From assembly GCF_026151205.1 (NCBI RefSeq), contig NC_087077.1:14670983-14734982 (forward strand): DNA of 64,000 bases, written 5' to 3'. Positions 25,701-40,700 of the stretch are shown here, piece by piece. The stretch comes from Bolinopsis microptera. Taxonomy: Eukaryota > Ctenophora > Tentaculata > Lobata > Bolinopsidae. Under the pieces are notes generated by a model. The model ran no database searches and had not been told where the DNA came from. It worked only from the letters and a program-made list of their open reading frames with translations. The first letter of the stretch is position 1; each line of letters begins with the position of its first letter. The translations under genes were made by a program, and so were the position numbers.

Positions 25701-28700
25701 AGCCTCGAGCGAACTTTACAAATCCACTTTCTCCCCAGCTGGATCCCCAAGAGTTCTTCACCAGCATGTATGTGGGTGTGTATCCTACAGCTGAGACGCC
25801 GTGGTTGGAGTTTCCTGTGCATGATCTGTCCTGGATGATGCCTCTAGTGTACTGTTGGAAGTATTCTGTTACTTGGAAAGTTAGGGACAAAGAGCCTGTT
25901 GTCAGGGCTGCGATGTGAGCGGCCCAATTTCGGCCAACTCTGGTGTAACCAGTGATTTTAGCAGCAATCAAAGCGTCAGGCTTTGAACTTCTCTTGCAGG
26001 AATTGTCGCTTGCATCGTATCCGTAGTGTGTAGTTGAGGACAACCTTCCGTACTTGGCTGAGTATCGGTAAGGGTCATCAGGCCATCCACCCGTGCAACC
26101 GTCCCTAGTTCCCTCGTACACACAGTCCAGGTATTCCTGCTCAGCGAAGTTCCTCAGGACACCAGTTTCTTTTCGGTACCTAGTTTCCAGACCACCAACA
26201 GCTGCTGTTACAACGGAAACAACAGTTTAGGAGAAGTGGTTTAAAATAAACTAACTTTTTCGACACAAAACATCTGTATTTATATTAGCTACCTTCTAGG
26301 TCATAATAACTATTTTAACGTCACACTAAAGTTAGTGCACCGTGAGCTGACCGGGGTTAAATGAGGCTTAGTCCACCTGCTATGGTCATGTGACCTAGGT
26401 CACATGACTTACAACCAATGGACGGCTGCCCCACCTATTGTTGGACCAATCGTAAAATTCGCGAATATTCTGCACCCATATTTTAGAACAGCAATGTTTA
26501 CAGGTCACGATTGACCGGTCACAATTGATGAACCACCTGTTCCCATGTTACTATCATCTAATCCTATGACCTAACATACCTCCTTTTTTTAATAATAATT
26601 TTATTCTATTTAATACTTTTTTAGATGTTTTGTGTTTAGAGGAATAAAATTATTAACTGAATCTTTACAACATGTATTTTACAATGCAACAAAATTTTAG
26701 TCTTAATACAACATTTTTAATGAAAACATATCTCTAGAGCTTTTACTTAAAGATAATTTTTAAATTCAAATTTCTAGTAAACATAAATGATTGGCTGTAC
26801 TTCCTTTTCGAACTTTTCTTTCTTTTATTATTGACAATCTGGAAATTGGTAAATGTGTACAGTCAACCATTTTAAAAATATATCAACTATTAATATATCA
26901 ACAATAATAAAACTCATCTAAAATTCTACTCTCAGTCTCTTTATTGTTCATGAATTGTCCATCATTCTCCTCCCTCCTCAAAACATTAACAATAATTTAA
27001 ATTAAATATCTATGCTTCTGAGAGCATGAGCAAGTTAATATATCTAGTCTAAAAAATTTTTTTATTATTTTTGTATATTTCCTTTTTTTATAATTTTCTT
27101 AATTTTGTTTTGATCATAACTGCATTCGCGATCAAAGCGATTTCGCGTTAAACGAAATTTGTACAATTAGTATTTCTCAAGAAAACAACAATTTCAAGAG
27201 AATTTCATATGCATGCTTATTATGCATATCATATATATTTTATAACCAGAGCATGATACTATCAGTACTTCTGGCCGTTAGTTTCCTATTGATGCCGGTG
27301 CATCGATAGAAATCTAACTCCAGGCCCAGGGACGGCCGGCACAAAGCTCGTGTGGTAATCACTTTGCGGTTTTACGGCTTTTGATTACCACAACTTGCCA
27401 ACCCTAGAACCTGTACATTATTTCAATCCAAAATTAAACATAAATTTTCTCTAGGTACAGCTGCCACTAAACGGGCAGTCAGACCAATATTAAATCTACC
27501 AAAATTGTTTATTCGCTGTCTGAACTGGCAGATGTGTCTGCTATAGTTTTGTTAGGGTCTTCTAGTCTGCGGCCGTATCAAGTTATGTGCCGTTTCAATT
27601 GGAAAATTTACGTTCGGTAATGTAGGCTCAATCAAATCAGGAAGTGATGAGCTGCGACTGAGTTGAGGACTCTGAACTTCAGACCTTTCTAGGTCCAAAT
27701 CTCTAAGTTCAATTTGTTCCGGCCTTCTGCGAGGTCTGATATAAGCATATGCTTTTGGGACATTTCTGCCTTTAATCATTTTATAGATTCCGTAAGCCAA
27801 AACCAGCGACCAAAAAGCCGCTGACACAATAGTCAGTGTTACATAAACTTTGTTCCAACCAAAATATTTATGTATAAGAGTGCCGGTATTAATTGTATGA
27901 ACAGTGTCTTTGAGCATATTAAGAGCCTTGGTCGTGTTCAACTGGTCAATTTTAATTTGATTTTTGTTTACCATCTCATTCCAAGTTAAGGGTGCTGTAA
28001 TTTCAACTTCAAGTTCGACTGTGTACTCCGTGTTTTCTGGATTTGAGACAAAACCATTTCGAAATTCGATTGTTTCAAATTGTTTCCACGGATAATAACT
28101 TACCCGTGTCTCAGTTTCGTTCGGGTGGATTTCAGTTATTTTGGTATTGTCAATGGCAGTGTGATAAATAGCTTTCACAACAAACATGGTGTGGATTAAA
28201 ACACCTGTCTGTAGCACAACCGTTTTGTCTGCACACTCAATTGGTAAAATTTTACAATCTGACATTAGTTCACTATTTAGGCAGGCTGCTCTAGCTTTAT
28301 TTTCATCGGCAGATTTTGCCGATGCCAAATTTTGATAACAATATAGTAGCTCTCCTGTGCCACCTTCGCATAGGTTCATGTCAAGTCCAATAAAGTTTCC
28401 TTTTGAGAAGTAAACGTAATCCGGTAGGTCATGATAATAGCATTTATTCTTTGCAGTAAATGAAGTTTGCCTGACTGCGTAGTACGGGTATGCATGGTTT
28501 TTCTTAATCACTGGGACTTGCAGAATTAGATGGAAACTATAATCTGCTGTGTTTTCTTTAATATCTATCAAATTGGCAGTAGTGGTGTGATACAAATATG
28601 AAGGTTCTTGCTTATAAACTGTATCGCTGAGGTCTTTTGTCGAATTTACTATATTTTGAAGCATTGTTATATCAAAAATTTGAGGAGAAAGCGGGCCGAT

Positions 28701-37700: not shown

Positions 37701-40700
37701 TCGTTGGGCGGGCTCTTCGTTTCTCGTCTTCAGTCTCTGTAGCTGTAGGTTGGGCGGGCTCTTCGTTGGGCGGGCTCTTCGTTTCTCGTCTTCAGTTTCT
37801 GTAGCTGTAGGTTGGGCGGGCTCCAGTCTCAGTAGCTGTAGGTTGGGCGGGCTCCAGTCTCTGATGGTTTAGAGAATATGCGTGGGCTCTTCCACTCGTC
37901 GCCAATGTTACAACGGAAACAACAGTTTAGGAGAAGTGGTTTAAAATAAACTAACTTTTTCGACACAAAACATCTGTATTTATATTAGCTACCTTCTAGG
38001 TCATAATAACTATTTTAACGTCACACTAAAGTTAGTGCACCGTGAGCTGACCGGGGTTAAATGAGGCATAGTCCACCTGCTATGGTCATGTGACCTAGGT
38101 CACATGACTTACAACCAATGGACGGCTGCCCCACCTATTGTTGGACCAATCGTAAAATTCGCGAATATTCTGCACCCATATTTTAGAACAGCAATGTTTA
38201 CAGGTCACGATTGACCGGTCACAATTGATGAACCACCTGTTCCCATGTTACTATCATCTAATCCTATGACCTAACACTGCGAATGTCCAGCAAGACCCAC
38301 AGCTTCCTTGGTTCTTGACTCTTGTTACCATACCCTCATTAGTCCAGAGTTTGGTAATGGGGGATTCTGACAAAGAGGAGGGGACTTGAATAGGGTTCTC
38401 GTCATGTTCAGTCTCATGTCCAGTTATGTTTATTCCTAAGTACTGTTGCTTCTCATCTACAGTCATTGCGGAGAAGAAGTTAAGACCAAAGACGGCAGAT
38501 CCCCCTTCCTCGTTAGATTGAGCTACTAACTCGGCATTGGATCTGAAGAGTCGGAACCTCATTCGGTCTTCAGATGACAGGTAGTCGAGGTGCTGCTGAG
38601 TTTTGAACTCTCCGTAAAGCTGAAGGGTTGCTTTGGGGGACCTAAGAATGCTCCTGAGGGCATCCTCAGTAGCAAGAGAGGCAGCCAAAAGGCAAAAGAA
38701 TAGAAAGATTTTCATGGTGATTAGTGACTATACGAAGTGAAGATTCCTTGCTGATCCCCCTATTTTATAGGAATTGAGGACAATACCACCACCAGATGTC
38801 TGTTCCCTCAGTTACAAGTGCGACAAATTATCCGAACTCTAACTTATTCACGACACTCTAAAGTTGTCATGTTGTTTGTTAATGCTCTTAGAGCAGATTT
38901 TAAACTAATTAAAAAACGCTACGAATATATTACATTATTGAGTTGGAGTATGTTTAAAGTAGTTCGTTTCTCTTGTCTGTAATATACAAATGTGACTGAG
39001 TTCAGTTAGTAGGGACTTGAACAAAAGAGTTAATTCTTACAACCATCTGGTAACTTAATCTATTTTGTAGCGACCCAGGAAAACTTAATTGTTCATCAAA
39101 TATTTCCTCGAAAACGTCTCGGTAAAATACAAATTAGCCTCTTGGTTATGAATCCGACTCTTGGTCAATCAAAAGATATTTGTTAAAGGTATAAATTATA
39201 AAAACTATGTAAGCTATCATTAGAAAGTATTACCTGTAGAACTAGTGGTGTATCGTATTCAGTCTCTTTCGAGTTTGATTTCCTCATTCCCAATACATAT
39301 GTCACGTGTAAATTTCCAATTATCTGGTAATTTGACAGCATTGGTAAATTAATTAGTTAATTAGTAAATACCCGGAATTCCTTTAAACGACTAAGATACA
39401 GGTTTGATACAATTGAGCTGAAAATAGTTATAAGATTGAAGAAGCACGTCATCACGTCATGTTACTAGTAGAAAAGTAGAAAAAGTAAGGAAACTAAAAT
39501 TGTCATACATCACAAATAACAAAATCATCACACATAGTGATGATAAATGTTTAATCTGGTTAATTGAAGTTCATGGTATAACATTAATACAAGGATTTAA
39601 TTGTACAATTTTTATACTCACGTAAGAATAAGACATGTGCCCGTGGGTCGGCTGTTTCATATCAAACATGGACGCAAGTGATTCTCCAAGTAGCTTTGTA
39701 AATGAGTTTTTTAGTTTTTTACCAACGTGCAAAATCTTCAGATCCCTGAAACAGTTACTATGAACTATAATTCAGGCTTCACAAACTCTAATAGTTTAGT
39801 AGCCTCTAGCCAAGTTTAATTAATTTAATAATTTCCTAAGGCCTATCTCAAAATTCTGTAGGAGAAGATAAAAAAATGTAGGAGAAGATAGATTTTTAGA
39901 CTCGATTTTCAGGGCGCGCGATTGAAAATCTCTCGCGCAATACAATTACACATTTAAGCGCTGACCTTTGACCAGCAATAATTTTGGCTAGGAACAATAT
40001 TCTTCCATAGGACCAGAAACAGCTGATAGATATCACTCCCCTCCATCAGAAACAATTACAAAGTCAATTTCGAGAGAATTTTGATGAAGACCCCCCCCCC
40101 CGGCCCCATTAAGGTACTTCCTCTATTAGTTACCTGTCAAAGTGGAGATAGAAAGGAAATTTCTTCAACATTTGAGAAGGTCTGAAGCGCTGCAAAACCT
40201 CGTTCGGTAACTTCCCTTGGTTGGGCCCTCTCTTTGCCACGTTTGTAAACTTCTGGAAATAGTCATGTTCACTTATACTTCACCTACTACTTCCTCTTCT
40301 TCTCCTTCTCCCCTCCCTCCCTCTCCCCTCTCTCTCCTCTCTCCTCTCTCCCTCTCCTCTCTCCCTCCCTCCCTCTCCCCTCCCACCCTCCCCTTCCACC
40401 ACCACCCCTCCTTCTCCCCTTGAGAAAAACCTCACAAGTGTAATGAATGCTCCTTATCTTTCACTCAGAAATCTACCCTCAGACAACACCAGCTGTCCGA
40501 GCTTAAATTATGAAAATTGCAACTTCCAGAGTTTTTATTAATTTATTTAAAATTTATTCTGTTTTTAAAACTCAAACTGTCACATTTTCGTTGGTGATAA
40601 TTAAGTTGATTCGTTATTTAAATGATGAACGTATTATATAATAAGAATAATGACCCCATAACTTATTGATTGGTTTTAATACTTCATTTTATTAACAGTA

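Follow-up and report, generated by a model that had tools for sequence, protein, structure and literature searches.

A retroelement turns into a virus when it gains the envelope gene of another virus, and a single fusogen is commonly deemed sufficient. A stretch of 64,000 nucleotides from the ctenophore Bolinopsis microptera (contig NC_087077.1, positions 14,670,983 to 14,734,982; hereafter the window) contains a Ty3/gypsy element of 12,071 bp, at 26206-38276 on the minus strand, in which gag and pol are followed by four further open reading frames (ORFs), ORF3, ORF4, ORF5 and ORF6. ORF3 and ORF6 appear to encode glycoproteins of different fusogen classes, and similar gene pairs recur across the genome. 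The element probably belongs to a lineage of endogenous retroviruses that inherits a two-fusogen envelope module, in which a class III protein resembling glycoprotein B (gB; ORF3) is followed by a class I protein resembling a viral fusion protein (F; ORF6).

Errantiviruses and other envelope-carrying Ty3/gypsy elements, such as Drosophila gypsy and ZAM, likewise have long terminal repeats (LTRs) around gag, pol and env, and their Env is of F type, with furin site, fusion peptide and membrane anchor, as ORF6 probably is. One Env is described in the available accounts of errantiviruses, whereas the window element encodes two of different classes, together with an F-box ORF and ORF4. The errantivirus env exon is spliced to subclade-specific upstream exons (PMC12992720), and envelope-carrying gypsy elements have been reported in ctenophores (PMC12859917). 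The TelKA elements of bdelloid rotifers use a paramyxovirus-type class I F as Env, which ORF6 appears to resemble; unlike the window element, they have no gB-like second glycoprotein or F-box described in the available part of the report (PMC5408684). BEL/Pao and gypsy elements with Chuviridae-like envelopes carry a type III glycoprotein as the Env of an LTR element, like ORF3 (PMC13172572; Anakin, PMC12440569). No class I partner is described in the available parts of those reports, and the best profiles for ORF3 are instead bornavirus G and herpesvirus gB. In the Drosophila MDG1 group, sORF2 is an accessory fusogen-like membrane protein of an LTR element, associated with soma-to-germline transfer (PMC11952523); it is a short FAST-like protein in an element without Env, unlike the window element. 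No retroelement with two fusogens was found amongst literature titles and the openings of abstracts, and the metazoan set of Chary and Hayashi (2025) may already contain such elements. A paper on a zebrafish endogenous retrovirus was considered as a two-env precedent and rejected, as its 'two env' passage refers to two elements each encoding Env.

Glycoprotein genes of the element

The frames downstream of pol and their principal features are as follows.

30912..32468, minus strand: ORF3, 518 amino acids, predicted class III glycoprotein (like bornavirus G and gB), from profiles and hydropathy
30403..30876, minus strand: ORF4, 157 codons, no ATG; its last bases are shared with the beginning of ORF5, which is in a different frame
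29748..30416, minus strand: ORF5, 222 amino acids, candidate F-box (below the Pfam cut-off) preceded by a CCHC-like knuckle (weak match)
27552..29702, minus strand: ORF6, 716 amino acids, PAN domain, furin site, hydrophobic stretch and C-terminal membrane anchor
29046..29057, minus strand: furin-type site RVKR, ORF6 residues 216-219, followed by a hydrophobic fusion-peptide-like stretch
27786..27842, minus strand: ORF6 membrane anchor, residues 621-639, from hydropathy

Sense-strand open frames within 26577-32570 measure 727, 534, 224 and 157 codons. When this interval was shuffled with dinucleotides preserved, 2 of 300 shuffles contained any frame of at least 157 codons, the longest being 174; ORF3, ORF5 and ORF6 are therefore longer than chance expects. 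ORF4 is borderline by length against the shuffles, but is conserved in other copies.

ORF3 has a hydrophobic N-terminal stretch and a C-terminal anchor. It matches the Pfam family BDV_G (E 1.3e-6; 27.6 bits against a cut-off of 27), and its match to Glycoprotein_B (7.5e-4; 19.5 bits) is below the cut-off of 43. One relative matches BDV_G at 7e-13 (48.2 bits) and Monjiviricetes_fusion at 1.4e-11, and amongst ten family members there are matches at E <= 0.1 to BDV_G in six, Monjiviricetes_fusion in four and Glycoprotein_B in four. When a profile built from ten ORF3 sequences was compared with solved proteins, only herpesvirus gB chains were returned (nine of nine at E <= 1, best 3.8e-8). The alignment of ten sequences, down to 20% identity, has 24 invariant columns, nine of them cysteines. 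The structural model, with a mean predicted local distance difference test score (pLDDT) of 35.6, shows a long helix at its centre and is better at about residues 343-418; the best 50 of its 353 fold matches at E <= 10 are all herpesvirus gB (best E 4.2e-6, template modelling (TM) score <= 0.30). We conclude from the sequence profiles that ORF3 encodes a class III glycoprotein.

In ORF6, a PAN_1 match (1.7e-6) accompanies the furin-type site and the membrane anchor. Relatives have a basic stretch at the cleavage position, as judged by eye, and 14 cysteines are invariant over nine sequences; the window ORF6 stops earlier than its relatives. The relative L035 matches Fusion_gly at 4.7e-10 (38.8 bits against a cut-off of 29.8). 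The ORF6 model (mean pLDDT 36.6) has two long helices past the cleavage site, and all 12 of its fold matches at E <= 0.001 are pneumovirus F proteins, of respiratory syncytial virus or metapneumovirus, from a model of low confidence. ORF6 thus resembles class I fusion proteins of the pneumovirus/paramyxovirus F type, with a PAN domain added, an assignment that is firmer for the family than for the window protein. At the level of sequence, the glycoprotein identity is established directly for ORF3 and indicated mainly through relatives for ORF6.

The PAN domain could indicate a different division of labour, in which one of the pair, ORF3 or ORF6, serves for attachment or as a decoy and is not a fusogen, so that a receptor binder and a fusogen form a machine of two parts. 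The PAN part of ORF6 resembles the microneme antigen and lectin SML-2 (family profile 6.5e-6; the fold match is weaker, with a best E of 0.08), and both herpesvirus gB and paramyxovirus F operate alongside partner proteins. Both proteins nevertheless have matches of fusogen type, and the furin site of ORF6 is followed by a hydrophobic stretch, and we regard this alternative as unlikely.

Pairing of the two genes and its interpretation

The two-glycoprotein layout is much wider than the window element. Within its own genome ORF3 has 40 matching rows at 30 places, and ORF6 has at least 64 rows at no fewer than 58 places, a lower bound given that 62 of 113 candidates were scored. An F gene lies 0.4-2.2 kb downstream of gB on the same strand at 25 of the 30 gB places; profile reading adds C9:16.415M, where both genes are decayed, which brings the paired places to 26, many of the 30 being copies of the same few families. 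The places without a paired F are C12:12.458M, C3:15.916M, C4:8.003M and C5:20.853M. A single env, as in the errantivirus type, is not the arrangement seen here, as two glycoprotein genes are present in the window and at 26 of 30 gB places; parts of an errantivirus-type Env are seen in ORF6 and its relatives, but gB sits between pol and F.

Pairing spans at least six divergent families, across which the sequences show the order of gB and F to be conserved; gB is 20-38% and F 18-35% identical between six representatives. Both genes are open in four of the pieces read (L033, L035, L036 and L038); in L034 gB is open and F is in pieces, and L037 is cut inside F. Over the six families, gB and F distances are correlated (Mantel r 0.77; 5 of 720 permutations as high). 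The clade C11-(C3a, C12) is common to both glycoprotein trees, with support of 1.00/0.82 and 0.987/0.999, and the W-C2 branch of the F tree is unsupported (0.05). A six-element tree covers this genome alone. Gag and pol lie ahead of gB and F at C2:5.05M (L061; gag and a 1253-codon pol in the piece read), C3:10.55M (L063; 452 and 1050 codons) and C4:13.57M (L064; gag of 438 codons, pol in two frames).

Outside this genome, a collection of 5.8 billion sequences contained four protein relatives each of ORF3 and ORF6 (for ORF3 the best 8000 candidates were scored), and a profile search of the collection with alignment A1 returned no proteins beyond those four. The best ORF3 relative is 97% identical and the best ORF6 relative 92%, each on a contig of 10,853 bases, and the two probably lie on one contig. 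No confirmed relatives were found amongst IMG/VR viral contigs in three pattern-based scans.

Substitution patterns were compared as the ratio of non-synonymous to synonymous change (dN/dS). Between the two young copies, those of the window and C8, it is 0.28 for gB, 0.19 for F and 0.20 for ORF5 (6, 19 and 7 changes), and in the C5 family it is 0.38 for gB and 0.14 for F (17 and 15 changes). As judged from these substitutions, selection between young copies is demonstrably mostly purifying. Comparisons with older copies, several of them short or from dead copies, gave 0.49 and 0.69 for gB, 0.11, 0.47, 0.68 and 1.64 for F, and 0.27, 0.46, 0.69 and 0.88 for ORF5; for ORF4 the ratio is 0.35, 0.32 and 0.24 in three comparisons and 1.55 and 1.69 in two. 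The ORF4 value of 0.35 is that against its longest open relative (bootstrap 95% range 0.19-0.79), and for F against C11:20.427M (0.11) an upper limit was not computable.

Elements with F alone also exist. Of 33 F places without a gB row, six were read upstream, over about 3 kb each. One has a gB remnant (L045, C3:7.53M) and is a further pair outside the 30; no gB was found within that distance at the other five (L041, L042, L043, L044 and L046), and in L046 a 951-codon pol frame directly precedes F. F-only sequences are scattered amongst paired ones in the F tree, and it is possible that gB was lost in some lineages or gained more than once.

These elements suggest that F alone can suffice, as would be expected if one fusogen were replacing the other, so that one glycoprotein performs fusion while the other persists as an accessory or a relic. 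Some baculoviruses, which are large DNA viruses with unrelated replication, carry both GP64 and an F homologue, and in alphabaculoviruses the two genes are not known to sit side by side as a module. Fusion proteins of two types occur in the family Baculoviridae (PMC2288602). Set against replacement are the open frames of both genes in several divergent families, with conserved cysteines, the dN/dS values below 1 for gB and F between young copies, and the persistence of the pair even without pol. Replacement is possible but somewhat unlikely.

Several elements with the pair lack pol. The copy at C5:10.10M (C5:10.095-10.106M; L050, L037, L056) has 1034-bp LTRs with 99.9% identity, and its gB and F frames are open; about 75 bp separate its gag from gB, F comes next, and no pol match was found in its pieces L050, L055 and L056. 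It looks like a pol-deletion derivative, being 99% identical in LTR and 97.7% in gag DNA to the pol-bearing element at C4:13.57M. The same gag stretch precedes gB at two further places (L051 and L053), and the same LTR pair recurs at C11:8.04M. Ten copies of the C12 family that are flanked by LTRs leave no more than 3.1 kb from the 5' LTR to gB, which is too short for gag plus pol, and the other parts read of the copies at C7:7.79M and C3:7.53M contained no pol match. The LTRs of the former (C7:7.786-7.796M; L059, L060) are 99.86% identical and enclose an ORF with a double zinc ribbon, gB and F rows with open frames, and two ORFs matching the F-box ORFs of C3:7.53M. Such elements would obtain reverse transcriptase and integrase in trans.

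The pair might be carried along by hitchhiking, in pol-less derivatives that are mobilized by helpers, instead of being kept for entry. The LTR elements with gag, gB and F, or with gB, F and two F-box ORFs, agree with this, as does TelKA2n, a non-autonomous env-bearing rotifer family without most of pol (PMC5408684). A parasite needing packaging signals alone would be unlikely to keep both glycoprotein frames open, and hitchhiking appears quite improbable. The same elements invite a bolder reading, in which a whole lineage of infectious Ty3/gypsy retroviruses has obligate class III plus class I entry, co-inherited since before the families diverged, and runs as a helper-satellite system. Pol-less replicons (gag-gB-F, or gB-F with two F-box genes) would then borrow polymerase, approaching a retrovirus with a divided genome. 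This broader proposal is speculative and rather unlikely.

Under the reading that we prefer, that of an inherited two-fusogen module in a retrovirus lineage, the element would operate as follows. Full-length RNA would be translated into Gag and, through -1 slippage, Gag-Pol, and spliced mRNAs would supply the glycoproteins and accessory proteins, with both glycoproteins placed on the particle or the membrane of the producing cell. Furin-cleaved F would act as fusogen, with its PAN head as the attachment part, and gB may serve a second fusion step, a second target cell or a second trigger. Two fusogens could provide for soma-to-germline transfer as well as spread between animals, or for two steps of one entry. 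The F-box protein would probably recruit the host SCF ubiquitin ligase, leading to removal of a host factor. If correct, the pairing of two unrelated fusogens through deep divergence, even in elements without pol, would be a natural experiment on why two are kept, for which two target cell types, two membranes and a two-step trigger are candidate reasons. It would also mean that proteins resembling gB and F share one lineage, possibly as old as early animals, and the F-box genes point to hijacking of ubiquitin ligases by retroelements.

Several observations weigh against this reading. The window ORF6 has no Fusion_gly match, and amongst the nine members of alignment A2 only L035 has one. Both glycoprotein models are of low confidence, with low TM-scores amongst the matches listed, so that the fold matches serve only as support for the sequence profiles. 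The F-only relatives imply that gB is dispensable in some lineages. The dN/dS ratio exceeds 1 in 3 of the 15 older-copy comparisons (ORF4 against C6:19.737M, 1.69; the N-terminal part of ORF4, 1.55; F residues 521-614, 1.64), and the range extends above 1 for the C-terminal part of ORF5 (0.88), F 611-710 (0.47) and F 7-149 (0.68). A stop codon interrupts the window pol in frame at 33174-33176, ahead of the C-terminal portion of the integrase; in the C8 copy there is no stop at the corresponding place, the pol frame in the piece read continues to about the same end, and the gag frame is open across 343 codons. Confidence in the two-fusogen reading is slightly lowered because a single relative out of nine supports the F type of ORF6 and because dN/dS ranges extend to 1 in several comparisons.

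ORF4, ORF5 and other copies of the element

The initial annotation described a Ty3/gypsy element with two different glycoprotein candidates, an ORF without AUG and an F-box ORF, and domain matches and further copies bear this out, the glycoproteins being unrelated and the F-box ORF F-box-like. Its further suggestion of regulators, in the manner of a complex retrovirus, is a hypothesis as regards ORF4 and ORF5. The F-box of ORF5 scores 19.6 bits, 0.9 below the Pfam cut-off of 20.5, and suggests a ubiquitin-ligase adaptor. A Pfam search with ORF4 gave no match. A likely precedent for the AUG-less ORF is the env exon of one fly subclade, which is joined by splicing to an AU dinucleotide (PMC12992720); the start codon of ORF4 would most likely be gained by splicing.

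The order gB-ORF4-ORF5-F is kept in full in the C8 copy and in decayed form in the C6 copy at 19.735-19.740M, and C7:17.86M and C7:18.11M retain the gB tail, ORF4, ORF5 and the start of F. With the window included, ORF4 and ORF5 lie between gB and F in all five copies that keep both ends of the interval. Pieces of gB and ORF4 remain at C3:15.9M, and of ORF4 and ORF5 at C11:20.44M. At C5:20.853M, where a decayed gB is up to 67% identical, neither ORF4 nor ORF5 was matched in the 1.3 kb read downstream.

All ten ORF4 rows in the genome are beside ORF3 or ORF5 rows. Of the 12 ORF5 rows, 11 are in element copies or pieces, the exception being a weak match at C5:10694865 (5.2e-5). From this distribution, no separate host gene or paralogue of ORF4 or ORF5 was found in the genome. 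The possibility of captured host genes, raised in the initial annotation, has thus found no support for these two ORFs; for ORF3 and ORF6 the matching places were read only in part. The related question of whether other copies carry ORFs 3-6 has a divided answer. They are present in the same order in C8 and, decayed, at C6:19.74M, and partly in two more copies, and are missing from internal-deletion derivatives. Other LTR pairs related to the window LTR enclose such shorter derivatives; in one of the two read (L068) an ORF6 fragment is the sole coding region left, and in the other (L067) there is an ORF6 trace. Fragments of ORF6 residues ~445-594 at C6:12.816M, C11:18.423M, C3:3.404M, C7:1.473M, C11:8.306M and C11:16.934M were considered as host genes and rejected, given related LTRs (84-95%) around five of them and beside the sixth, and L068 being an internal-deletion derivative.

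A chance composite, in which genes from the neighbourhood or the host joined an ordinary element at this site alone, or an assembly error, would fit the restriction of ORF4, and of an F-box ORF between gB and F, to this family alone. It is exceedingly improbable, as the C8 copy lies on another contig with its own 4-bp duplication and has the same ORFs at 99-100%, the order is kept in decayed copies, the genome search revealed no host paralogue of ORF4 or ORF5 apart from the element, and the 97% ORF3 relative lies on a 10,853-base contig and the 92% ORF6 relative on one of the same length.

F-box ORFs occur in one other family, that of C12, where two ORFs score 25.1 and 30.7 bits, above the Pfam cut-off. 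ORF5 is 24% and 21% identical to them, and a profile comparison gave a probability of 0.6%. For the whole of ORF5, 5 and 3 of 1000 shuffles reached the alignment scores; for the region past the F-box the corresponding numbers were 55 and 0 of 1000. Given the low identity, the shuffles and the profile probability, common descent of these ORFs with ORF5 is unproven.

The LTRs of the decayed C6 copy (C6:19.7298M and C6:19.7412M) are unequal, the 3' LTR being 99% and the 5' only 79% identical to the window LTR. This suggests exchange or later LTR replacement.

Element structure, insertion site and neighbouring sequence

The remaining features of the element and its insertion site are listed below.

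37906..38276, minus strand: 5' LTR, 371 bp, from pairwise LTR comparison
26206..26576, minus strand: 3' LTR, 371 bp, a single mismatch against the other LTR
38277..38280, no strand: target-site duplication CTGC, right copy, from flank comparison and the empty site
26202..26205, no strand: target-site duplication CTGC, left copy, from flank comparison and the empty site
37887..37904, minus strand: putative primer-binding site, one base inside the 5' LTR
37565..37861, minus strand: tandem repeats of the leader, with units of 16 bp, 62 bp and other lengths, lying between the primer site and gag
36506..37492, minus strand: gag, 328 amino acids, with a Retrotrans_gag match that clears the cut-off by 0.3 bits and a pair of CCHC zinc knuckles
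36533..36539, minus strand: -1 frameshift heptamer GGGAAAC in the gag frame, also in the C8 copy
33174..36542, minus strand: pol, with protease motif region, reverse transcriptase, RNase H, and integrase H2C2 and core; ends at an in-frame stop
32571..33173, minus strand: open frame continuing pol past the stop, integrase C-terminal part, SH3_Tf2-1 match below family cut-off
26579..26590, minus strand: putative polypurine tract AAAAAAAGGAGG, adjoining the 3' LTR
38281..38715, minus strand: host cathepsin-like gene, 5' part (propeptide and start of peptidase domain)
25414..26205, minus strand: host cathepsin-like gene, 3' part, interrupted by the element

The LTRs and a 4-bp duplication (CTGC in the window, AAAA at the second copy) are traits of Metaviridae (Ty3/gypsy), and the primer site, polypurine tract and leader repeats are all at the expected positions. 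Gag and pol overlap in the -1 frame, with the heptamer GGGAAAC in frame at 36539-36533. The domain order in pol is protease, reverse transcriptase, RNase H and integrase; reverse transcriptase, RNase H and integrase H2C2 are above the Pfam cut-offs, the integrase core is below, and the protease is recognized by motif and a sub-cut-off match only. Its region contains DTGA, which we take to be the protease motif. Amongst solved structures (best 60 of 189 matches), pol is closest to Ty3-G Gag-Pol (7.2e-64), then to Ty3 reverse transcriptase, with weaker matches to one polyprotein, presumably of plant-virus type and ranking after Ty3, and to retroviral enzymes. The retroelement machinery is thus established from its sequence.

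Joining the host flanks minus one CTGC restores an open cathepsin-like frame with zero internal stops and matches to Peptidase_C1 and I29. The insertion falls directly after the stretch GSCGSCWTFA, presumably the papain-family active site. The element at 26206-38276 is, on its sequence features, a recently inserted, nearly complete endogenous retrovirus of Ty3/gypsy (Metaviridae) kind. An LTR query of the genome gave at least 40 rows (40 of 43 candidates scored). No tRNA was found for the primer site, the 15-mer complementary to it matching exactly only two element copies, and no Rfam families or tRNAs were found in the window.

Beside a C12-family LTR, a frame on the minus strand (L049, 478-945) has no Pfam match; it looks to us like the GIY-YIG endonuclease of a Penelope-like element. 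Next to the window element, three 84-bp repeat arrays at 41011-47283 resemble C2H2 zinc fingers, and a tandem repeat of 291 bp is present at 43941-44524. Finally, a GACCCT repeat array (99% matches) occupies 63450-64000, up to the end of the window and far from the end of the contig.

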